Assembly (NCBI RefSeq): GCF_000240165.1
Contig: NC_017586.1
Location: 310,001-374,000 of the forward strand
Direction of reading: 5' to 3'
Origin: Streptantibioticus cattleyicolor NRRL 8057 = DSM 46488
GTDB lineage: Bacteria; Actinomycetota; Actinomycetes; Streptomycetales; Streptomycetaceae
DNA: 64,000 bases
Part shown: positions 26,382-41,130 of the stretch, piece by piece
Position numbering within the stretch: the first letter of the stretch is position 1
Layout of the letters: each line of letters starts with the position of its first letter
Program-made: the position numbers and the translations under genes
Notes under the pieces: generated by a model
What the model was told of the DNA's origin: nothing
Databases searched by the model: none
The model's input: only the letters and a program-made list of their open reading frames with translations

Positions 26382-26894
26382 ATGACCGAAACCACCGGGG
26401 CCGGCGGACCGGCACCCCGGCACGTGGACGCCCGCACCCTGCGCGGCCTGGCCCACCCGCTGCGCATCCACATCCTGGAAGTGCTCAAGCTGGAGGGGCC
26501 GGCCACCTCGGCGGGGCTCGCCGAACGGCTGGGCGAGAACACCGGCACACTCAGCTGGCACCTGCGCCACCTCGCCGCCCACGGCTTCATCGAGGAGGAG
26601 ACCGGGCGCGGCACCCGGCGCGAACGCTGGTGGCGGGCGGTGCGCTCCACCATGGTGCTCGACTCCGCCGAGCTGCGCGCCGACCCCGCCGCCCGCGGCG
26701 CGTTCGCCGTCTCCGACTGGACGCACCTGCGGCTGACGCCCGACCGGCTGCGCGCGCTCACCGAGGAGCTGGCCCGGGTGGTCGCGAGCTACGCGCCGGA
26801 TCCGGACGCCGAGCCGGAGGCGGACGCGCTGCCGGTCGTCGTCCAGGTGCAGGCGTTCCCGTACCGGGCGCCCGGCGCCGGGGACGAGGGGTGA
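26382..26894 (+). CDS. ArsR-type winged-helix transcriptional regulator
   Basis: 170 aa. A winged helix-turn-helix spans ~18-95: LAHPLRIHILEVL, then the recognition region NTGTLSWHLRHLAAHGFIEE. No cysteine metal site is seen, so it belongs with the metal-independent ArsR/helix-turn-helix regulators common beside drug transporters. ATG 26382 was chosen because the repeat operator and a -10 element end just upstream; starts further upstream would lie inside them. Its stop overlaps the GTG of the broken MFS gene by 4 nt. Confidence 0.87.
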   Translation: MTETTGAGGPAPRHVDARTLRGLAHPLRIHILEVLKLEGPATSAGLAERLGENTGTLSWHLRHLAAHGFIEEETGRGTRRERWWRAVRSTMVLDSAELRADPAARGAFAVSDWTHLRLTPDRLRALTEELARVVASYAPDPDAEPEADALPVVVQVQAFPYRAPGAGDEG

Positions 26895-28229
26895 GAGCGG
26901 CGGCGGCCCGGCCGGCCCTGCGGGGCGCGCGCCCACAGGGGCCCGGCGGACCGCTGCGGCGCCACCGCGATTTCCGGCTGCTGTGGTGCGGACAGACCAC
27001 CGCGAAGTTCGGCACCGCGGTCGGCGGTGTAGCGATGCCGCTGGTGGCGCTGACCGCGCTGCGGGCGGACACCTTCGAGGTGGGGGTGGTGGGGGCCGCC
27101 GCCTGGCTCCCCTGGCTCCTCGTCGGGCTGCCGGCCGGTGCCTGGGTGGACCGGCTGCCGCGCCGGGCGGTGATGGTGTGCGCGGACGTGGCGGCGCTGG
27201 TGCTCTTCGGCAGCGTGCCGGTGGCCGCCTGGTGCGGTGTGCTCACCATGGCGCACCTGCTGGCCGTGGCCCTGCTCGGCGGGGTGGCGGCGGTCTTCTT
27301 CCAGACCGCCTACAGCGCCTGTCTGCCCGGTCTGCTCGACCCGCGCGACCAGGCGGAGGGCAACGCGCGGCTGCACGGCAGCGCCTCGGCGGCGCAGATC
27401 GCCGGGCAGAGCGCGGGCGGGCTGCTGGCACAGGCGGCCGGGGCGGGGGACGGGCTGGCGGCCAACGCGGCCGGGTTCGCCGTCTCGCTGCTGTGCCTGG
27501 CCCGGATCCGGCACCGGGAACCGCCCCGTACCGCCCGGCGCGACGGCACCCGGCTGCGCCACGAGGTGGCGGTGGGGCTGCGGCTGGTGCTGGGTGACCG
27601 GTGACTGCGCACCCTCACCCTCTTCGGCGCCGCCTCCAACCTCGCGCTCATGGGGTACCAGACGCTCCAGGTGGTCTTCCTGGTGCGGTGGGTGGGGCTG
27701 CCCGCCGGTGCGGTCGGGCCGCTGATCGCCGCCACGGGCACCGGCGGGGTGGCCGGGGCGGCGCTGACCCGGCGGGTGGCGGCCCGGCTGGGCACGGCCC
27801 GCGCGATGCTGGTGTTCGAGCTGGTGGTGCCGGTGCCGGTGCAGCTCATGCCGCTGACCACACGCGGCGCGGGCGCGGTGCTCTTCGTGGCCGGCGGCTT
27901 CTGCGTCTCGTGCGGGGTGGTGGCCCGCCAACGTGCTGAAGGCCGGGTTCACCCAGCGCTACTGCGCGCCCGGGGTGCTGGGCCGGGTCACCGCGAGCGC
28001 CGCCTTCCTCAACTACGGCACGCTCCCGCTGGGCGCCCTGCTCGGCGGTGCGCTGGGCGAGTGGCTGGGGGCGCGCACCGGGCTGTGGATCACCACGGCC
28101 GGGGTACCGCTGTCGGCGCTGATCCTGTTGTGTTCTCCGGTCCGGCGGGTACGGGAGCTGCCCGGCGGTTTCGCCCCGGGCGGCTCGGGCAACCCGGCGG
28201 ACGACACGTACGCCGAGCAGGGAGCGTGA
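26891..28229 (+). pseudogene. MFS transporter broken by a stop codon and a frameshift
   Basis: Begins GTGA over the ArsR stop. Frame 2 reads an MFS exporter (HRDFRLLWCGQTTAKFGTAV at the start, LPAGAWVDRLPRR in the A-motif loop) to an in-frame TGA at 27602-27604, where GDR-stop-LRTLTLFG suggests a lost Trp codon. The same frame continues past the stop to ~27925. There one extra base in GGCCCGCC moves the reading to frame 0, which finishes ANVLKAGFTQRYCAPGVLGR and the rest to 28229. Corrected product ~445 aa, an MFS drug exporter of the TetR/ArsR-linked type. Two independent lesions make a natural pseudogene likely, unless the sequence is faulty here. Confidence 0.85.
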
Positions 28230-30939: not shown

Positions 30940-32682
30940 GTGCCGGAAGCACACGTGCCCATCCCGCGGAACGACACCACAGCGCTCACCAAAACCCTCT
31001 ACTTCGGTGTCGATCCGAAGAAACCGGGTGTCCCCAGGACCGTGAACGTCCGGGAGATCGAGCCCGGCATCGCCGTCGCCGCCACGCTCGGTTCGGTCGA
31101 CTTCGGCTACACCTGGGGCCTGTTGACCGGCCGTAGCAACGCCGGACTGGACGAGCACGAGCGCGCCCTGGGCCGCAAGATCCTCACGCAGCCGCGGTTC
31201 CCCTGGCAGACCGGCGACCAGCCGGGGAACGACGGCTTCGGGAACTACGTCACGAGGCTGATCGGATCGCTGAAGCAGACGTCGAAGGGCAGGAGCAACG
31301 ACCGCAACTGCGGGGACGGGCGAGGGGCATGGGCCGCCATCTCCTTCCCTGGGGCCGTGTCCTGCAGGCCGAGGGCATGCTGTTGCGGCCCGACGTCCTT
31401 CTCGCCAACCTCCTCAACCGCGCGGTCGGGATCCTCTCCGGGGCCAGCGACGACCGCCCGGTGGACGTACCGGTCTCCTGGAAGCCGTGGGAGTACCGCA
31501 CGGTGCGGACCGCGCTCTCGGAGGCGCTCGCGCTCGGGGCGGAGGCGCCGCTGCGCTACATCCAGTCCGGTTTCGACGACTTCGGAGTGCTCAGCCAGGA
31601 GCCGATCCGGGCGCCGCAGATCGTGAAGGAGGCCGGGAACACGGTGGCGCGCTTCGTGATCGACCTGCACGCCGCGGCCGGTTCCGACAGCGGCTTGAGT
31701 GAGCTGGCCCGGCGGATGGTGCGCACCGAGGCCGCGCGGCGCCGCGCCTGGACGCTCAACGAGAAGGCGGTCAGCGAGGAGTTGGGGCTGCCCTCCCGGG
31801 AGTCCAGCCAGCACGTCGGCAAGGACCTGTACTGGGAGCACCACCTGCTCAAGGACCCGACCACGCTCACCCGTGAGGTGGTCACCAACCCGAAGACCGC
31901 GACCGCCGCCGGCTTCATCACCAACGGCAGGCTCCTCTTCGATGTCGCCAACAAACAGGATCTGGCCTGGGCGGTTCTCGTCGCGCTGGAGGCGCCCCTG
32001 CAGAAGGGCGTCACCGCGCTGCTCGACCTGTTCACGCTCGGCACCATGGGCCGGCCGATCGAGAAGGCCGTCAGCCTGCTCATGCCGAGCAACCTCTACG
32101 CGCTCGTCAACAGCGCCCGCTGGGTGGAGACCTTCGTCGTCAAACCCCTCATGCACCAGCAGGCCGAGCGCTTCCTGCTCGCGTCGGGCGTCGGCGCGGT
32201 GGCGGCCGTGGACGCGTTGGTGAACGAGAAGCTCTCCGTCTTCGCCGAGGCCGCCCGCAAGCAGTTCAGCGGCGCCAACGCCAAGAAGGACTTCGCCCAG
32301 CAGGTCCAGCGCAAGAACGACAAGGAGAACAACCGCAAGAAGCTGATCGCCCAGGCCCGGGAGGGAACCGAGCCGCCTCCCCCCGCACCCGAGAACTCCA
32401 AGATCCCCGGATACCTCCAGCAGGGCGCCGCGCTGGTCTGGAACTTCGCCGCCGACCAGGTGCCGGTCCCGTTGCCCGTGCCGACTCTCCAGCAGCTCCA
32501 GGTGGGTGCCAACGCCTCGGCCTCCCGCGGGGAACGCGGCCTTCAGCGAGCAGGTCGAGCGTTACGTCGCCCAGCACCGGGGCTACTACCTGGAACGCAA
32601 CAAGGCCCTCGCGGAGCGGGTGTCCGGGGGTCCGACGCCGAAGGTGAGCACCGCGCTCGGCCGCAAGGAGACCGCCGTATGA
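30940..32682 (+). pseudogene. Gene A of the fibre-like cluster: unknown ~580-aa protein, two compensating frameshifts
   Basis: GTG start with AGGAGCGAG upstream. Frame 1 gives TALTKTLYFGVDPKKPG to VTRLIGSLKQTSKG; between 31281 and 31330 the reading moves to frame 0 (RVLQAEGMLLRPDVLLANLL onward); near 32521-32532 (extra C in CCTCCCGCGGGG) it returns to frame 1 and ends NAAFSEQVERYVAQHRGYYL to KETAV. The net change is zero, so the total is exactly 581 codons. The middle is mainly helical, with a charged coiled-coil-like stretch (QVQRKNDKENNRKKLIAQAR) and a Pro-rich linker. No signal peptide and no known family. The T-K-T-L-Y-F-x-x-D-P start echoes that of gene E. Its stop overlaps the ATG of gene B (ATGA). 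Confidence 0.7.
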
Positions 32683-35600
32683 GCCTGTCCACCGCGCGGC
32701 TGAAGGAGATGATCGGGGCGGCGGCGGGGGGCTTCGTCCTGTCCGCCGCCGAACTCGCGGTACCCGAGGCCGAGCCCCTGTTCGCGGACTGGCTCGGTGG
32801 CGACCTGGTGCTGGAGAACGGCACGGGTGACGCGGAACGGCTGCTGGTGCGCGGCACGCTGGCCGGCGGCGCCGAAGAGCTGTCGGGGCTGCCCGCGTCC
32901 GTACGGTTCTCCAGCGCCGAGGACGGTGGCGGTGAGGCGTACGTCACCGGTCTGGAGATCGCGGTCACCTGGCCGGGCTGGGCGGTCGACACACCGTTCC
33001 TCCAGCAGGACATGAGCGTGCTGGAGCGAGGCGGGTTCGCCGACCCGCTGGTGGTGCTCTCCGCGCGGCCGGACGGGTACGGCCAGGTGCTGCCGATGGC
33101 GCTGCCGGCCGCGGCGCTCGGTATGGAGGGCGCGCCGGGGGTACCGGCGTACGTGAAATTCCTCCCGGTCGCGGAGGACCCCTCGGACGGGGCGCGGGCG
33201 CGGCCCCGGCGGGCCACGGCCGTCGGTGAGTTCGGCGACGGCCTCGTCTTCACGTCCACCGAGGGCCTGGCCGCGCTGCCGTTCCTCGCCCCCGGCGCCG
33301 TGGACGGTTGGCAGCTCCCGGCCCCGTCGCCGCCGCGCTGTCCTCGCTGCGCGTCACCGACGCCACCGCCGAACTGCACTGGGACGGCGGCGTGTTCGCG
33401 CGGGCCGGTGTCGGTGTGGAGCTGGACACGGAGGGCGGCTGGACGCTGATCGACGGCCTGCTGGTGCTGGACGGCTTCTCCGGCTGGCTGACGGCGGAGA
33501 CCGGGCGGGGCGACGAGCCGCCGCGGGTCTCCGGCGGACTGGCGGCGCTATTGCGGGCGGGGAACTCACTGGAGCTGGAGGCCGGGCTGGCGGTGCCCGG
33601 CGGTGCTGTCTCCGGCTCCGTGTACCGGCCCGAGGGCGGACTGGACCTGATCGGCGACGAACTCCCCGACGGGCTGAGCCGGTCGGCGACCGAGCTGGAG
33701 TACTGCTACGTCCACTGCGATCCGGCCACCCGCGACTACCTGCTGGCCCTCGGACTGGACCTGGAGTGGGGGTTCATCGACGGGCTGGCGTTGACCGGGC
33801 TGATCCTGGAACTGTCCGGAACGGGCGGGGGGACGCCCGCCGCCACCGTGATCGGCACCCTGCGGCTGGGCGGCGCGGACGACCAGATGGTGGTGTGCGG
33901 AACCCGGGACGCCGGTGGTGCCTGGTCCGTCTCCGGCACCGTCACCGACATCTCCTTCCGGGGCTTCGCCGACTGGTTCGCGGACACGTTCGGGACCCGG
34001 CTTCCCGAGGCCGTCGCCGGACTCGAACTGTCCGAGGTCTCGCTGGCCTTCGACCACACCGGCGGCGGGGAGTTCCGGTGCTCCGGCGCCCTGCCGCTGG
34101 GCGAGACCACCCCGGCTGCCGCCTTCGCGCTCCGGGCCGCGGTCGGGCGCGACGGGGGCGGCAAGCGGACCGTGGAGTTCAGCGCCACCCTCGACGTGGC
34201 GGTGGACCTCGGTGACGGCGAGCCGTACCCGATGAGCTTCGACGTGGAGCTGGGCACCGGTGGCGACGGCACCCGGCTGACCGCCTCGTGGACGTCCGAC
34301 GGCGAACCGGTCCCCGTGCTCACGGCGCTGGCCGCACTCGGCCTGGACGGGCTCGGCGAGTTGGAGGACGCGCTGCCGGCCGCGCTCCGCCCCGCGCTTC
34401 GCGCGCTCACCCTGGCCTATGACGCCGGCGCCGGGCGGACCGTGGTCACGGCGAGCACCGAGCGGCTGACCTTCACCGTGGCGTCCGTACGGGACGCGCT
34501 GGGCAAGCCGCTGTGGGCGCTCCAGGCGGTGGTCGCGGTGGGCCTGGGGCTCTCCCAACTCCCCCTGCTGTCCGGCCTGCTGCCCGCCGGGGCCGAACTG
34601 GCCGTGCGCGCGGTGCGCCGGTGGCCTCCTCCGCGCCCGTCCCGGGGCCGCTGCTGGCCGAGCTGAACGAGGCCGCGGGCGGGACGCCGTTCCCCGTGCT
34701 GGACAAGGCGGAGGGCGGGCTGCCCGGCGGGGTGTGGCTGGCCCTGGAGTACACGGCGCCGGGGCTGGACGCCGGGCTGCTGAGCCTGCCGGTGGGCGGG
34801 AGGAGCCCGTCCGGCGCGACTCCCCCGGCGCTCCCCGCCGCACCGGGCGGAAGACCCGCCACCGTGTCCGGCGCCCCGTCGCAAGGGGACCGGCCCGGCG
34901 CGTGGGTGGAGCTGGGCCGCGTCTTCGGCCCGCTGCACGTCCGGCGGATCGGCGCCTCCTACGAGGCCGGGACCGTCTGGCTCATGGTGGACGGGGAGTT
35001 CACCGCCTCCGGGATCAGCCTGTCGGTGTCCGGGCTGGCGCTCGGCGCGGACCTGGACGCGGAGGGGTTCCCGGTACGGACCCGACTGGGCGGGCTGGGC
35101 GTCGAGTTCGCCAGGCCGCCGCTGCTCGTCTCCGGCGCGCTGGTGAACCGTGTCCCGCCGCCGGAGGGCTACGAGCTGATGGTGGGCGGCATGCTGGTGG
35201 TGCAGCTTCCGCAGCTCGGTCTGACCGTGGTCGGCGCGTACCAGCGGCGCCGCGACGGCATGCCCTCGCTGTTCGTCTTCGGCCGGGGCACGATGGCGCT
35301 GGGCGGGCCGCCGCCGTTCCGGGTGCGCGGGTTGGCCGCCGGGTTCGGGTTCAACAGCTCCGTCCGCGTCCCCGGCGCCGGGGAGGTCGAGCGGTTCCCC
35401 CTGATGTCCGGGCTCGACGGCAACCTGCCCGAGAATCCGATGGAGATGCTGGACCGCCTGTCCGGCGAGTGGGTGAGTTCCGAGCCGGGGCAGCTGTGGC
35501 TGGCGGCCGGGATCGACTTCACCTCCTTCGAGTTCATCACCGGGCGGCTGCTGGCGCTCCTGGAGGCGGGCGACACGCTGACGCTGGCCCTGCTCGGCAC

Positions 35601-36612
35601 CGCGCGCGCCGCGTTCCCCAGGAAGGGGCGGGCGTACGCGCAGATCAAGCTGGAACTGCGGATCGTCCACAGTTCCGCGCGCGGCGCCTTCGAGGCCGGT
35701 GCCCAGCTGTACGACTCGTACGTCATCGACCCCAACTGCTCACTCACCGGCGGCTTCGCGTACACCATGTGGTTCGGCGACAGCCCGCACGCCGGTGACT
35801 TCGCGCTCACCGCGGGCGGCTACCACCCCGGCTACGAGCCGCCCGGACACTACCCACAGGTCCCGCGGTTGGGCTTCTCCTGGTCGCTGGGGCTGCTGGG
35901 CCGGCCGCTGGCGCTGGTGCGCGCCCGGGTCCGCATCGACCTGGACGGCCCGGCCCACTACGACCCGGCCTGGCGCAACCTCCTCGACCCGGAGCCGTCC
36001 GCGCTCACCACCCACCGCTGGCCGGTCCGGCTCGGCGAGCGGGACGACCTGGGCGACGGGCTCCTGGCCTACGTCCACGAGCGGGACTACGGAACGCTGC
36101 ACACGGTGCTGGACACCGACGACCTCGCGGATCTGGAGGACCCCGGCGGCTATCTGCGTCCCATCGGGACCGGCACCGGGCTCGCCGTGTCCGCGCGCCC
36201 GCCGCACGAGCACACGTCCGGCAGCACGACAGAGCTGACCTTGCTGATGGACCCGTACGGCACCGTGCACGCCACCACCGGCATCCTGCCGACGGCCGCC
36301 CTGCTGCTCCCGTCGGGCGCCTTCGAGGAGCCGCTGGCCGCGCTGACCGCCGCGTTCCGGTTCGGCCCGATGCCGGTGCTGCCCAGCCGGGTGGAAGGGG
36401 ACGCCCGCGGCGACGCGCCGCAACTGGCGCTGCCCGTGCCCTCGGGGCGCCACGGCACCTGGACCTGGGAGCAGCGGACAGCGGACGGCGGCTGGCGCAG
36501 CCACCCCACCCGGTCCGCGAGCACGGCGCCCGACCTGCCCGCCCCCCGCCCCGAACTGCGTACCGGCTGGCTCCAGTTGCACCCCGCCGCGCCGCAGGAG
36601 GACACCCGATGA
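32679..36612 (+). pseudogene. Gene B: giant beta-rich protein resembling DUF6603, two frameshifts
   Basis: ATG overlaps the gene A stop; AAGGAG upstream. Frame 0 (32679-~33320), frame 2 (~33325-34610) and frame 1 (~34615-36612) join if one base is restored near 33317-33328 and one near 34601-34622; corrected length ~1,311 aa. The whole protein is built of short beta strands ending in Gly or Asp turns (for example GLALTGLILELSGTGGG, SVSGLALGADLDAEGF, VVQLPQLGLTVVGAYQRR). The C-terminal ~600 aa resemble the domain catalogued as DUF6603, as far as memory allows. No signal peptide, no membrane span and no catalytic motif. It may be a scaffold or large extracellular/intracellular assembly protein working with C-F. 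Confidence 0.72.
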
Positions 36613-36668
36613 CCGAGCCCGACCGGTCCCCGGCGATACGCCGCCTGGAAACACGGAGGACGTCATGA
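36609..36668 (+). other. 19-codon micro-ORF linking genes B and C
   Basis: Starts in the stop of gene B (ATGA at 36609) and stops in the start of gene C (ATGA at 36665), so ribosomes could pass from B to C by two re-initiations. The product would be 19 aa, mostly Arg, Glu and Thr; it is more likely a coupling device than a working peptide. Confidence 0.35.
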
Positions 36669-37207
36669 CCGCCCCGCAGCAGCAGACCGGCGGTGCGGCC
36701 ACCACCGGTGCCACCCGGCTCGGCTATCTGCACACCACCGTTCCGGAGCAGGTGTACGCGAGCCGCCCCGACGGTGAACTCGCCGTGTGCGACCTGCGGA
36801 TCACCGTCACCAACCACACCCCCGGCCCCGTCTACTGCCCGCAGCTCACCATCCGCCTGCCGGTCGGTGCCGGCGCCGCCCAGTTCGCGCGGTTCGGCGC
36901 GGGCATCACCGCGCAGGCGATCCCCGCCACCTGGACCGTGACCGCCGTGCAGGACGACGTCCTGATCGCCGTGCCGGACAGCGGTGCGGCCCGGTTCGAA
37001 CCCTCACCCTTCGGTTCGGCCCGGGCCCCGACCCCGAGCCTGGTCGTCGAGTTGCGCGGCATCCGCGTGAACCGCGATCCGGGCACCACCGTCGTGCACG
37101 TCGACGAACTCGCGGGCACCGCCCCGGCCGGCCCCTGGAGCGCGGCGTCGCACACCATCTCGATCGTCAAGCGCGCCCCGCACTCCGCCCCCGGCGACGA
37201 GAGCTGA
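36665..37207 (+). CDS. Gene C: stand-alone base domain of the fibre-like family
   Basis: 180 aa, all-beta, cytoplasmic by sequence (no signal peptide). It carries the pattern V-C-x-L-x-I-x-V-x-N ... Y-C-x-x-L-x-I-x-L-P-x-G (VCDLRITVTNHTPG, CPQLTIRLPVG), which recurs at the N-terminus of D and, with less identity, of E. So C is the base module without shaft or tip. GGAGG precedes the ATG. A structural or adaptor role beside D-F is inferred; I know of no named family. Confidence 0.75.
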   Translation: MTAPQQQTGGAATTGATRLGYLHTTVPEQVYASRPDGELAVCDLRITVTNHTPGPVYCPQLTIRLPVGAGAAQFARFGAGITAQAIPATWTVTAVQDDVLIAVPDSGAARFEPSPFGSARAPTPSLVVELRGIRVNRDPGTTVVHVDELAGTAPAGPWSAASHTISIVKRAPHSAPGDES

Positions 37208-37276
37208 CCGTCGCCCGCCCAAGCACCGCCCACGCACCGCCCCGACCCGACCGCCCGCACCCGTCACGGAGCCCGC

Positions 37277-38737
37277 ATGACCCGCACCCCACCGGCCGTC
37301 CGCACGGACGACGAACTGCCCGTCCCCTCGTACGTCCTCGGCCAGGGCCTGCTCGACTACGCCCTCACCAGCACGCCCTACCCCCTCATGGCCAGCCCCG
37401 CCACCGGGGCGCTCACCCGCGCCGACGTGACCCTCGTCGTCTGCGCGGCACCCGGCGAGCAAGTGCTGTGCGGCGAACTGACCGTGGAACTCCCGCTCGG
37501 GGACGAAGCGCAAGCGCTGGTGTCGAGCGCGGACGGCATCGAAGCCGTTCCCTCCGACAGCTACTGGACCGTGACGGTGGAGACGGTGACGGGCCGCGTC
37601 CGGATCACCCTGACCGCCGCCGGCTCGGGCTATGTCTTCGACGACGGCTTCCTGGTGCGTCTGCGGAACCTGGGCATCGCCCGCGCCGTCGGCGGTACCT
37701 GGATCGACGTGGCGGAGAACGCCGTGCCGCTCGGTGGCGCGGCCGGGACGCGGGGCGGGGCGCCGGTCCGGCTGGAGAACGCCAAGGCACCCTTCCGGCC
37801 CGCCGTGGAGGCCGGGTCCCCCAACCGCTTCTCCGCCCACCGGTACTCCGGCAGCGGCGCGGACACCGCACCGGCCACCCTCGTCGCGGCGGGTTCGCCG
37901 GTCACCTTGCGCTGGCAGGACCGGCAGGGGGTGACCAGGCGCCTGTTCGGGGACTTCCTGCCCGAGGACGCGGGCCCGCACGATCCGCGCGAGGGCCTGG
38001 ACGTGACCGACCGGGCCCGGCTGGACAGCGCGCCACTGCTCCGCCCGGCCGTCTTCACCCTGCGCACCACGGACACCGCCACGGGAGCGATCAGCGACGA
38101 GAGCGTGACGGTGCAGGTGGACTCGCCGACCTGCGACGGACTCACCCTGACCGGCCCGCTCACCCCGCGCGAGGGGAGGGTGGCGTTCGACATCACCGGG
38201 TCGTTCTCGGTGAACGGCGCCCTGAGCGTCGAGGGCACGCTCGGCGCGGGCGAACTGCGCGCCACGGGAGAGGCGACCGCGTCCGGCCCCCTCCGGACGT
38301 CCGGTGGCGCCACGCTCGACGGCGCCCTCACCACCGGCGGACGCCTGAGGTCGGACGGCGAGGTCGTCGCCGGACACGTCAGCACCGGCGACCTCACCGC
38401 GCACGAGCGGGTCCAGATGTTCGGCACCCCCGAAACCGCGACGATCAGCAGCGGCTGGAAGTGCTCGGCCGGGACGGACGGCCTGTACGCCGGACATCTC
38501 ACGCCCCCCAACCCCTACCTGACGGCTGCCGACCTGGAGGTCGTGGTCAACGGCGTCGGTGGCGAGCGGAAGACCGCAGCCGGCGTCGAAAGGAAGGAGG
38601 AGTACGGGGCCCTGTTCCTTCCGTTGCTGCGCGGAGACACGGTGCAGACCGGGGGCGTGGCCAGCACACACGTCGGCTTCCAGCGCGTGTTCTGGATCCC
38701 GTTCGGCACGGGCGGCTTCCCAATGACCCCCAGCTGA
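37277..38737 (+). CDS. Gene D: fibre-like protein (base, Ig-like, shaft, tip)
   Basis: 486 aa. Modules: base beta domain (~15-170; VLCGELTVELPLG), Ig-like module (~185-290; SPVTLRWQDRQG to FTLRTTDTATG...ESVTVQVDSP), a repetitive shaft (~295-385) of hexapeptide-like steps (FSVNGALSVEGTLGAGELRA, TSGGATLDGALTTGGRLRSD), and a tip (~395-486; TDGLYAGHL, ALFLPLLRGDTV, FWIPFGTGG). Such a shaft with a C-terminal globular tip is what trimeric phage tail fibres and C1q-like proteins look like. No signal peptide. GGAG ribosome site. Intact in frame. Confidence 0.8.
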   Translation: MTRTPPAVRTDDELPVPSYVLGQGLLDYALTSTPYPLMASPATGALTRADVTLVVCAAPGEQVLCGELTVELPLGDEAQALVSSADGIEAVPSDSYWTVTVETVTGRVRITLTAAGSGYVFDDGFLVRLRNLGIARAVGGTWIDVAENAVPLGGAAGTRGGAPVRLENAKAPFRPAVEAGSPNRFSAHRYSGSGADTAPATLVAAGSPVTLRWQDRQGVTRRLFGDFLPEDAGPHDPREGLDVTDRARLDSAPLLRPAVFTLRTTDTATGAISDESVTVQVDSPTCDGLTLTGPLTPREGRVAFDITGSFSVNGALSVEGTLGAGELRATGEATASGPLRTSGGATLDGALTTGGRLRSDGEVVAGHVSTGDLTAHERVQMFGTPETATISSGWKCSAGTDGLYAGHLTPPNPYLTAADLEVVVNGVGGERKTAAGVERKEEYGALFLPLLRGDTVQTGGVASTHVGFQRVFWIPFGTGGFPMTPS

Positions 38738-38790
38738 GCCGCGATCCCCCACATCCGCCAGCCACGCCCCGACACACCGGAAGGTCACCG

Positions 38791-40119
38791 ATGGCTACGC
38801 CCGCCGGCACCCTGCTCACGCACACGCTCTACTTCGAACCGGACCCGCCGCAGGCCGGCTCCTCCGACAACGCGGACCCCACGCTCAACCTCCTGGTCAC
38901 CAACGGCGGTTGGACCATCGTCCGGTGCACGGCCATCGCCCTTCAGATCCCCGCCGGCTCGCGCGCCAAGGACCTGGTCGCCGACGGCTCGGCCGTCGGG
39001 GTGGTCTCGGTGCCGGAGGGCTGGAGCGCCCGGGAACCGGTCCACACCAACAAGTTCGCCCGCTTCACCTTCGTGCCCGACCAGGGGTTCGCCGACATCG
39101 CGCAGCAGACGCTGCGCTTCGTCCTCGCCCCGGTGCCGCTCAACGACGAGGTGGGCGTGGCCTATCCGCACGTCGTCGAGACCGCCGCACCGCAGGGCCA
39201 GGAACCCGCCGAGCGGTCGGTCACCCTCCGGATGCCCAAGTTCCCGGCCGGAGTCCGCACCAGGCCCCAGCCGGGCACCAACCTCGCGGTGTTCGCGCCC
39301 GGCCACGAGGAGGGGGACGCGCCGGTCGTGCGCGTCGCACACGGGGCGAGCGTCGAGGTCGCCTTCACCGCCGCACCGGGGCTGGCCCGTACCCTGCACT
39401 GGCGGGACAGCGACCGCGGCGACCCGGTGCCGGACGGAGCGGACCGTGTGGTGTGCGGGCCGCTCACCCAGGACACCACGTTCACCCTCCAGACGGTCTC
39501 CGAGGCGGGCGGCGAGACCGTGAGCCGCTACGACACGGTGACGGTGGCCGTGGACGTCCCCGGCCACCCCGAGGTGCGCGTCGTGCGGGCCTCCGCGGGA
39601 CCGCAGGAGATCGCGCTGCCCACTTCGCCGCCCGCCGCGTCGCTGACCCTGGGCGGCGACCTGGACATCGCGGCAGGCCTGGACGTGGTGGGCTCCCTGA
39701 CCGCCTCGGGGCCGCTGACCGCTTCCGCGCTGAGCGGCGCCTCCCTCGACTACGCCGGCACCGTGACCGCCCCCGCCCCGCTGGACGTCGACGCGCTGGC
39801 CGCGGGCACGCTCGCGGCGACCGGGGGCCTCACGGCCACCGGGACCGTGCGGATGATGCGAGCGGGCCGCGAGGAGCTGTCCTCCTCCGGCGGGACCCGC
39901 GTCGCGGACACCGACGGGCTGCTCGTCGCCACCGCGCGGGGCACACGCGGGCCCGTCCACCTGGCCGTCACCGGTAAGCCCACCTTCCGCACCACCACCA
40001 GGAACGGGGACGGCGCGCTCGTCGCCCCGGTCCACGCCGACACGCGGATGTCCTGGGCGGTGGAAGGCGACGTCGGGGAGGGCGAGGTGCGCTTCTACTG
40101 GTTCGCCCTCGGACTGTGA
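38791..40119 (+). CDS. Gene E: fibre-like protein (base, Ig-like, shaft, tip)
   Basis: 442 aa, same order as D. Base (~5-140; THTLYFEPDP, NLLVTNGGWTIVRC, ALQIPAG), Ig-like module (~165-270; ASVEVAFTAAPG, PLTQDTTFTLQTVSEAGGE, YDTVTVAVDVPG), shaft (~285-360; LTLGGDLDIAAGLDVVGSLT and similar) and tip (~365-442; TDGLLVATA ... ALVAPVHADTRMSW ... FYWFALG). GGAAGG precedes the ATG. No signal peptide. The tip is shorter than in D and lacks the PLLRGD triplet but keeps its position. Confidence 0.8.
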   Translation: MATPAGTLLTHTLYFEPDPPQAGSSDNADPTLNLLVTNGGWTIVRCTAIALQIPAGSRAKDLVADGSAVGVVSVPEGWSAREPVHTNKFARFTFVPDQGFADIAQQTLRFVLAPVPLNDEVGVAYPHVVETAAPQGQEPAERSVTLRMPKFPAGVRTRPQPGTNLAVFAPGHEEGDAPVVRVAHGASVEVAFTAAPGLARTLHWRDSDRGDPVPDGADRVVCGPLTQDTTFTLQTVSEAGGETVSRYDTVTVAVDVPGHPEVRVVRASAGPQEIALPTSPPAASLTLGGDLDIAAGLDVVGSLTASGPLTASALSGASLDYAGTVTAPAPLDVDALAAGTLAATGGLTATGTVRMMRAGREELSSSGGTRVADTDGLLVATARGTRGPVHLAVTGKPTFRTTTRNGDGALVAPVHADTRMSWAVEGDVGEGEVRFYWFALGL

Positions 40120-40172
40120 CGACCGCACGCCAGGACCGTCCCCCAACCCCCGCCGCCCAGGAGGTCCCTCCC

Positions 40173-41038
40173 ATGTCCCCGCACTCCGGCACCCCGTTCA
40201 GCGCCCGCCGCAACGTCCCCGGCGACGCCCGCAGTCTGCCGCCCGCGACCCGGGTCTCCCACGGCGAGTCCGTCGTCCTCTACGGGGACGGTCCGTCCGG
40301 CCCCCACACCCTGTTCACCGACCGGGCGCCGCACGGGCAGCCGGTCACCCTCCCGCACACCACCGAACCCCTCACCCGCGACACCGTGTTCACCCTCCGG
40401 ACCTCGACCGGCGGAGCGACCCAGTACCACACGGTGACCGTCACCGTGGACACCCCCGAACTGCCGGGTCTGAGGACGGACGCGCTCCGGGGCGACCTCA
40501 GCCTGTCCGTACCCGCGGCGCTCACCGTCTCCGGGACCGTCGAGGTCTCGGGCGCGGCGAAGGTGGACGGCGCCTGCGTGGCGGGCGCCATCCGGGCCGC
40601 CGGACACGTGGAGACCGGGACGGTCACCGTGACCGGCGACGTCACCAGCGGCGACGCGGACTCCCGCCTGGAGATCGCGGACCTGCGGGTGGCGCGGGGG
40701 ACGGAGACCGCACACGGCCTCTCCATCACCGGCGGCCCGGCCGCCCTCTTCGGCACGCCGCTCACCGGCGCCGCGAACGCCCCGAGGACGGCTTCGTCGT
40801 GTCCCTCGGCTCCTACAAGGACATGGAACTCACCGCCACCTCCGCGGACGGCACGTCCACCACGACCCGGGCCAGGGCCGCCGGAAGGTACCCATGGACA
40901 GCGGGAGCCCTCCCTCTTCATGTGGGCGACCGCGTGGAGGTCACACCCACCGACGCCCACGTCCACGTCGTCCCCCTCGGCCACGCGGGCACCCACACCG
41001 CCCCTGACGCCGCCGTGGCGGAGCCGGACCACACCTGA
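40173..41038 (+). pseudogene. Gene F: fibre-like protein without base domain, one frameshift
   Basis: ATG behind AGGAGGTCCC. Frame 0 gives the Ig-like module (SHGESVVLYGDG, PLTRDTVFTLRTS, YHTVTVTVDTP) and shaft (LSVPAALTVSGTVEVSGAAK, HVETGTVTVTGDVTSG). Near 40778-40786 one base is missing from CGCCCCGAGG, and frame 2 then reads the tip (EDGFVVSLGSYKDMELTATS ... GALPLHVGDRVEV ... VHVVPLGHAG) to the stop at 41038. Corrected length ~288 aa. It lacks the N-terminal base of D and E, so it may dock through another protein. Uncorrected, translation runs on over the dehydrogenase gene. Confidence 0.77.
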
Positions 41039-41130
41039 CGACGTCCACCGCCACCCCGCGTCCCGATCGCGGGTTTCCCTCCCCCGGGCCACGGACACCC
41101 GGACCGGGGAGAACTGCGAAGGAGGCGACC

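Follow-up and report, generated by a model that had tools for sequence, protein, structure and literature searches.

A cluster of six genes, A to F, occupies positions 30940-41039 on the forward strand of the 64,000-nucleotide stretch analyzed here (the window), which belongs to the 8.1-Mb, two-contig genome of Streptantibioticus cattleyicolor NRRL 8057. As the earlier note had described, all six genes lie on one strand and are tightly spaced: A and B overlap in an ATGA at 32679-32682, and the gaps that follow measure 52 nt (B to C), 69 nt (C to D), 53 nt (D to E) and 53 nt (E to F). Gene A (30940..32682) encodes a mostly helical protein of unknown family and is broken by frame switches at ~31318 and ~32533. 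The 5' part of gene B (32679..35892, with frame switches at ~33318 and ~34616) comprises an N-terminal beta-rich region and a DUF6603 domain that ends after two thirds of its length, whereas its 3' part (35893..36612) corresponds to the C-terminal ~235 aa of a different protein and is joined in frame to what remains of DUF6603. Gene C (36665..37207) consists of a base domain only, the detached base of a fiber gene whose distal half is F; D (37277..38737) and E (38791..40119) are intact fiber-like genes with a base, an Ig-like domain, a beta shaft and a tip; and F (40173..41039) has the Ig-like domain, shaft and tip without the base, and switches frame at ~40784, ahead of the tip. The reported lack of signal peptides was confirmed for A, C, D, E and F, which have no N-terminal hydrophobic segment of the signal-peptide type; the start of B reaches a hydrophobic score of 1.99 over 10 residues and lacks a clear signal-peptide layout. 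The only real Pfam match in the cluster is that of B to DUF6603 (PF20248; 301 bits against a curated cut-off of 27 bits, E = 1.6e-89), and searches of NCBIfam, PHROGs and PADLOC returned no weighty match for any of the cluster proteins. Upstream of the cluster, a transporter-like gene (26417-28220) has frame switches of its own at ~27930 and ~28220.

B had been taken for one giant DUF6603-like protein. The domain is indeed there, but its match (34918-35892) covers only positions 3-325 of the 502 in PF20248, and the rest has been replaced by the end of another protein. When every protein encoded in 21 loci from relatives was compared with the last piece of B (from 34624), residues 2-423 aligned to the DUF6603 domain of proteins that mostly extend 600-800 aa beyond the DUF6603 part of B, and the sole alignments of residues 424-656 were to the last ~235 aa of a second large protein, termed here big, with the junction (35892/35893) falling on the same residue, plus or minus one, in every comparison with big. 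This sharp shift in homology rules out a single giant DUF6603 protein. The 5' part is 60% identical to the DUF6603 gene of S. noursei, and the 3' part is 67%, 53% and 49% identical to the big C-termini of S. noursei (L084:10001-10690), G065 and G241, respectively. In relatives, the two stretches joined in B lie ~7 kb apart, separated by the remainder of DUF6603, a gene for a ~780-aa protein termed here fam2, and all but the last quarter of big; judged by these alignments, the window has undergone an in-frame deletion that took all three. A second DUF6603 match in the same genome (C2:1.90 Mb) was considered as the relocated missing piece of B and rejected, because it represents a separate, decayed paralogous copy whose common segment with B is only 44% identical. 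This second decayed operon copy (L033:9788-15676; C2:1,903,787-1,909,675) retains the end of DUF6603, a frameshifted fam2 and the first part of big, and adjoins an IS110-like transposase. In Streptomyces sp. NBRC 110611 a DUF6603 fragment also abuts the end of big (L131:8934-12054), so deletions between the DUF6603 and big genes may recur.

Intact relatives of the cluster have a DUF6603 gene, fam2, big (1,150-1,400 aa) and one to three fiber genes, all on one strand. When 84,980 species were scanned with the C-terminus of big, 67 loci emerged, and in 49 of these DUF6603, fam2 and big are consecutive on the same strand with one or more fiber genes; the remaining loci are mostly cut by contig ends, partial, or distant versions with a fourth gene that the fiber profile does not recognize. 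The expectation, set beforehand, that homologues of B would occur with genes of the C-F type in other genomes was thus borne out, and the survey of their neighborhoods for constant partners, which the earlier note had called for, yielded fam2, big and fiber and no further recurring gene: clustering of neighbors gave only antisense artefacts, and a Pfam scan of 112 neighbors of intact operons returned ordinary chromosomal families, mostly transporters and enzymes (among the 25 commonest families listed). No recurring neighbor having emerged, the constant unit is therefore DUF6603, fam2, big and fiber. No secretion or lysis gene was found alongside the operon. The same order is present in most of the first-pass relatives, in the second decayed copy at C2:1.90 Mb and on plasmids of Streptomyces and Paenibacillus. 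The window departs from it: part of DUF6603, the C-terminal end of big and the fiber genes are present, and fam2 is missing. In the closest relative, S. noursei (L084), the DUF6603 gene, fam2 and big are followed by homologues of D, E, C and F, which are 45%, 48%, 59% and 43% identical to those of the window; for D and E, this identity spans the whole length.

Operon hosts are mainly streptomycetes, along with Nocardia, Frankia, Actinokineospora, Sphaerisporangium and Actinomadura; distant versions occur in Bacteroidota and Pseudomonadota, and plasmid searches added Paenibacillus. In the distant phyla, the fourth gene has a base-like N-terminus (as judged by eye and from gene order) and carries propellers or FISUMP distally. 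Besides the host genome we searched 394 others from its family (395 in total), and fam2 was detected in 60 of the 78 that were DUF6603-positive, the other 18 having DUF6603 without fam2, in different contexts, as opposed to two of 317 DUF6603-negative genomes (both weak matches). Across the phylum, both families are patchy, and all genomes with fam2 also have DUF6603. RefSeq annotation names DUF6603 and labels the other operon proteins hypothetical. Neither fam2 nor big matched a known family, profile searches of PDB sequences gave nothing convincing for these two or for DUF6603, and the PADLOC anti-phage defense models matched none of the A pieces, B3, D, E, fam2 or big. We found no mention of DUF6603 or PF20248 in a literature search whose reach left most subscription papers and preprints outside. 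DUF6603, carried both by B and by the first gene of intact operons, is a family of undescribed function, and with fam2 and big it makes up a set of core proteins without described function. Individual loci have additional genes close by: a 984-aa gene with a Peptidase_M91 match (G151_07, E = 2e-6) adjoins one operon (L064:2269-5223); proteins of ~530-540 aa with hemopexin-like and beta-propeller repeats lie between or beside fiber genes in the L043 and L045 regions (G379_09, G141_09) and the L046 region (G099_08); and glycine-rich, collagen-like proteins occur near a Bacteroidota version of the operon (L145:14370-17002).

Against this background, the picture of the window as an intact six-gene system did not survive: the copy lacks fam2 entirely and big for about three quarters of its length, B is a fusion, and A, B and F are broken, which leaves C, D and E as the only open genes. 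The last four of the five frame switches were confirmed by relatives with uninterrupted ORFs: single ORFs of G035 bridge the second switch in A (~32533) and the first in B (~33318), whole DUF6603 genes of relatives bridge the second in B (~34616), and one continuous S. noursei ORF, with 43% identity to F1 and 36% to F2, bridges that in F (~40784). The remaining switch (~31318) coincides with an internal deletion in A, which lacks there an inner segment of ~100 aa that is found in relatives. The A fragment of S. eurocidicus (L154) has this segment and a frame break of its own nearby, and the A-like ORF of S. noursei (L153:7415-9409; 664 aa) is unbroken. Gene A is confined to a few streptomycete loci, with matches in four of the 395 same-family genomes and a clear match in one besides its own genome, and it belongs to no family in Pfam, NCBIfam, PHROG or PADLOC. 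In S. noursei, the intact A-like gene is immediately preceded by a 735-aa gene of unknown family (L153:5196-7403), which lies ~9 kb away from the operon, on the other strand.

One fiber gene has also been split. In S. eurocidicus, C and F form a single uninterrupted gene, and in S. noursei their homologues are adjacent ORFs in the same frame with a stop between them, the upstream ORF being the one to which C is 59% identical; in the window, C and F stand at opposite ends of D and E, which explains the missing base of F: C is that base. For comparison, an automatic rule was applied to 20 regions sampled from this genome, with 307 kb of coding sequence, and found 10 frame breaks, or 0.33 per 10 kb. 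The same rule flagged two of the five switches in the cluster (31318 and 33318) and either read the others as gene boundaries or missed them, at positions where homology shows continuity. Some of the frameshifts may be sequencing errors, which do not account for the deletions and the split between C and F. Read against its relatives, the window copy is a relic, a decayed copy of the operon, and it has probably lost the function of the operon.

The modules ascribed to the fiber-like proteins were recovered in the AlphaFold2 model of D (mean pLDDT 71.5, ~50-70 in the tip), which is all beta and is divided into a base sandwich (residues 26-151), an Ig-like domain (164-282), a shaft of short strands (289-397) and a tip (395-475). 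The base resembles the sandwiches of YcnI, pilins and adhesins (the best match has a Z of 12.2 and 2.4 A across 120 residues, in a match list dominated by this domain). For the DUF6603 domain of S. noursei, the model consists of ~25 long antiparallel strands in a single amphipathic meander, with pLDDT mostly above 90 there. The best PDB matches listed for it, to ApoB100 and to outer-membrane barrels or porin sheets, are weak, with an rmsd of ~13 A, and the likeness is therefore one of general hairpin topology only.

Fiber tips are exchanged between operons that are otherwise closely similar. Comparing the base, the Ig-like domain and the last 95 residues (tip) of the first fiber gene of each locus, we obtained median identities across 99 locus pairs of 84% for big, 82% for fam2, 81% for the base, 81% for the Ig-like domain and 27% for the tip. 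For 19 of the pairs, identity in big was 90% or more; their base and Ig-like domains were 74-99% identical, and the last 95 residues fell below 40% in 14 (these pairs are not independent, many coming from one clade). At the DNA level, L096 is ~95.7% identical to L097 and L100 over 10.6 kb, ending within the shaft, and the flanks of these loci do not match beyond the operon; the occurrence of near-identical operons in unrelated flanks suggests horizontal movement. These alignments demonstrate tip exchange, just as those above demonstrate homology and decay. Shaft repeats differ in number between loci, and the distal modules of relatives include F5/8 type C discoidin (E = 7.8e-10), Fib_succ_major/FISUMP (8.9e-19), propeller repeats and C1q-like endings; one member has weak matches to an amidase (E = 0.0033) and a PHROG endolysin (0.0013). 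E matches the PHROG tail-fiber family phrog_4549 at E = 0.001, and the shafts of relatives match it in five of 60 members (best E = 1.3e-9) and also match bactofilin and FapA solenoids. We take this apparent similarity to phage tail-fiber and bactofilin-type beta-solenoids as supportive only.

Phage tail fibers combine a beta shaft with an exchangeable C-terminal tip that is switched by recombination. The fibers of the operon have the same combination of beta-solenoid shaft and exchangeable tip, along with weak similarity to tail-fiber profiles in the shaft; however, D and big had no tblastn match in 50,697 phage records, the C-terminus of big had none in viral contigs, and the operon is without tail genes. 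On the strength of these searches, a phage or viral origin was rejected. Contractile injection systems, including that of Streptomyces, are defined by a sheath, a tube and a baseplate (PMC10066040), and share with the operon tail-fiber-like recognition proteins and cytoplasmic assembly, the latter being inferred for the operon. No sheath, tube or baseplate was found linked to the operon, whether among A-F, the core proteins or the 25 most frequent Pfam families of the 112 neighbors; the one phage-sheath family gene encountered in the genome (L180, G000:C1:1368561-1368986, E = 4.9e-29) is on the other contig, unlinked to the window, and probably belongs to the contractile injection system of this organism. 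The nearest working analogy is the multi-protein umbrella toxin (Umb) particle of Streptomyces. Its ligand-binding tips, which vary greatly and are thought to select the target species, are borne by conserved attachment domains; they sit on the trypsin-like UmbA domain and are joined by UmbB to the ALF repeats of the toxin UmbC (PMC11062931). A particle made by the operon would likewise carry diverse binding tips on conserved adaptors; in Pfam scans, the Umb families (ALF-repeat UmbC, trypsin-like UmbA and UmbB) matched none of A-F, DUF6603, fam2, big or the fibers. By these tests the operon appears to be neither a contractile injection system, nor a phage tail, nor an Umb particle (the last set apart via Pfam scans), and it fits none of the known kinds tested.

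On balance, we think it probable that the intact operon, of which the window has a decayed copy, specifies a multi-protein particle, made in the cytoplasm and fitted with an exchangeable fiber for target recognition. We infer the particle and its target from the genes, the PDB matches of DUF6603 being topological. The body, a large amphipathic beta sheet that may meet membranes, would come from DUF6603, and fam2 and big would form a conserved hub on which the fiber base docks; the tip borne by the shaft would bind a surface ligand, probably a glycan, and its replacement by recombination would re-target the particle. Against such a particle stands the lack of any secretion or lysis gene with the operon that might account for its release. 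The proposal in the earlier note, of a multi-protein assembly with alternative binding tips different from contractile injection systems, thus holds in part: a multi-gene unit with fiber-like tip proteins recurs in 49 of 67 loci, with no sheath, tube or baseplate found linked to it in the scans above, but the copy for which it was proposed is incomplete.

Other readings account for parts of the same evidence. The absence of signal peptides and export genes, together with the long amphipathic antiparallel meander predicted for DUF6603 and its weak best matches to ApoB100 and outer-membrane barrels, would also suit a structural or lipid-handling system inside the cell or on its surface, in which DUF6603 is an amphipathic sheet that coats or moves lipid and is anchored by the fibers to the surface of its own cell; we consider this unlikely, as wholesale tip exchange in near-identical operons, patchy presence and carriage on plasmids do not befit a housekeeping role. 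A constant docking N-terminus with an interchangeable C-terminus is likewise the layout of cargo proteins, and the base might load different effector domains onto a DUF6603/fam2/big delivery particle, as could be argued from the member with weak amidase and endolysin matches and from the M91-type metalloprotease-like gene (G151_07) that adjoins one operon. However, nearly all recognized distal modules are binding folds (discoidin, FISUMP, propellers, C1q-like endings) borne on a beta-solenoid shaft, and no toxin family and no recurrent immunity-type neighbor were found, leaving this second reading somewhat less credible still.

We give even less weight to the idea that the window cluster functions as it stands, with the DUF6603-big fusion serving as a streamlined body and D, E and F as the three tips of a reduced particle. 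The fusion is in frame and its position is plausible, the frames of C, D and E are open, and D and E align to their S. noursei counterparts over their full length; but A, B and F are each interrupted, A lacks its inner segment, fam2 and most of big are gone despite being constant elsewhere, and no further locus with the same fusion was found. Least probable of all, to a degree that we would hardly entertain it, is that the operon encodes the fiber module for a phage tail, a tailocin or a contractile injection system: shafts do match a tail-fiber PHROG in a few members, and the genome does have a sheath gene, but that gene is unlinked and on the other contig, phage records and viral contigs returned no match, and no structural family of phages or contractile systems figures among the most frequent families of the operon neighbors.

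Beyond the favored reading of a particle with exchangeable fibers, we suggest more tentatively, and with rather less than even confidence, that the intact operon could represent an undescribed class of targeting particle, without kinship to phage tails, to contractile systems or to umbrella toxins, in which an amphipathic DUF6603 sheet that could meet membranes forms the body, fam2 and big the hub, and the tips are swapped as cassettes, and which would have spread horizontally across at least four phyla. Its interest lies in the intact operon family, not in the broken copy of the window: three large, conserved families without described function travel together with a fiber whose end is replaced between near-identical operons. 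Replacement of the end between near-identical relatives is a signature of target choice in tail fibers and bacteriocins, and the operon displays this pattern without phage or injection machinery. If the operon does make a particle, it would constitute a new class of bacterial weapon or adhesin, in bacteria already known for antagonism, and would provide the first functional context for PF20248; and the exchange of tips makes target recognition testable.
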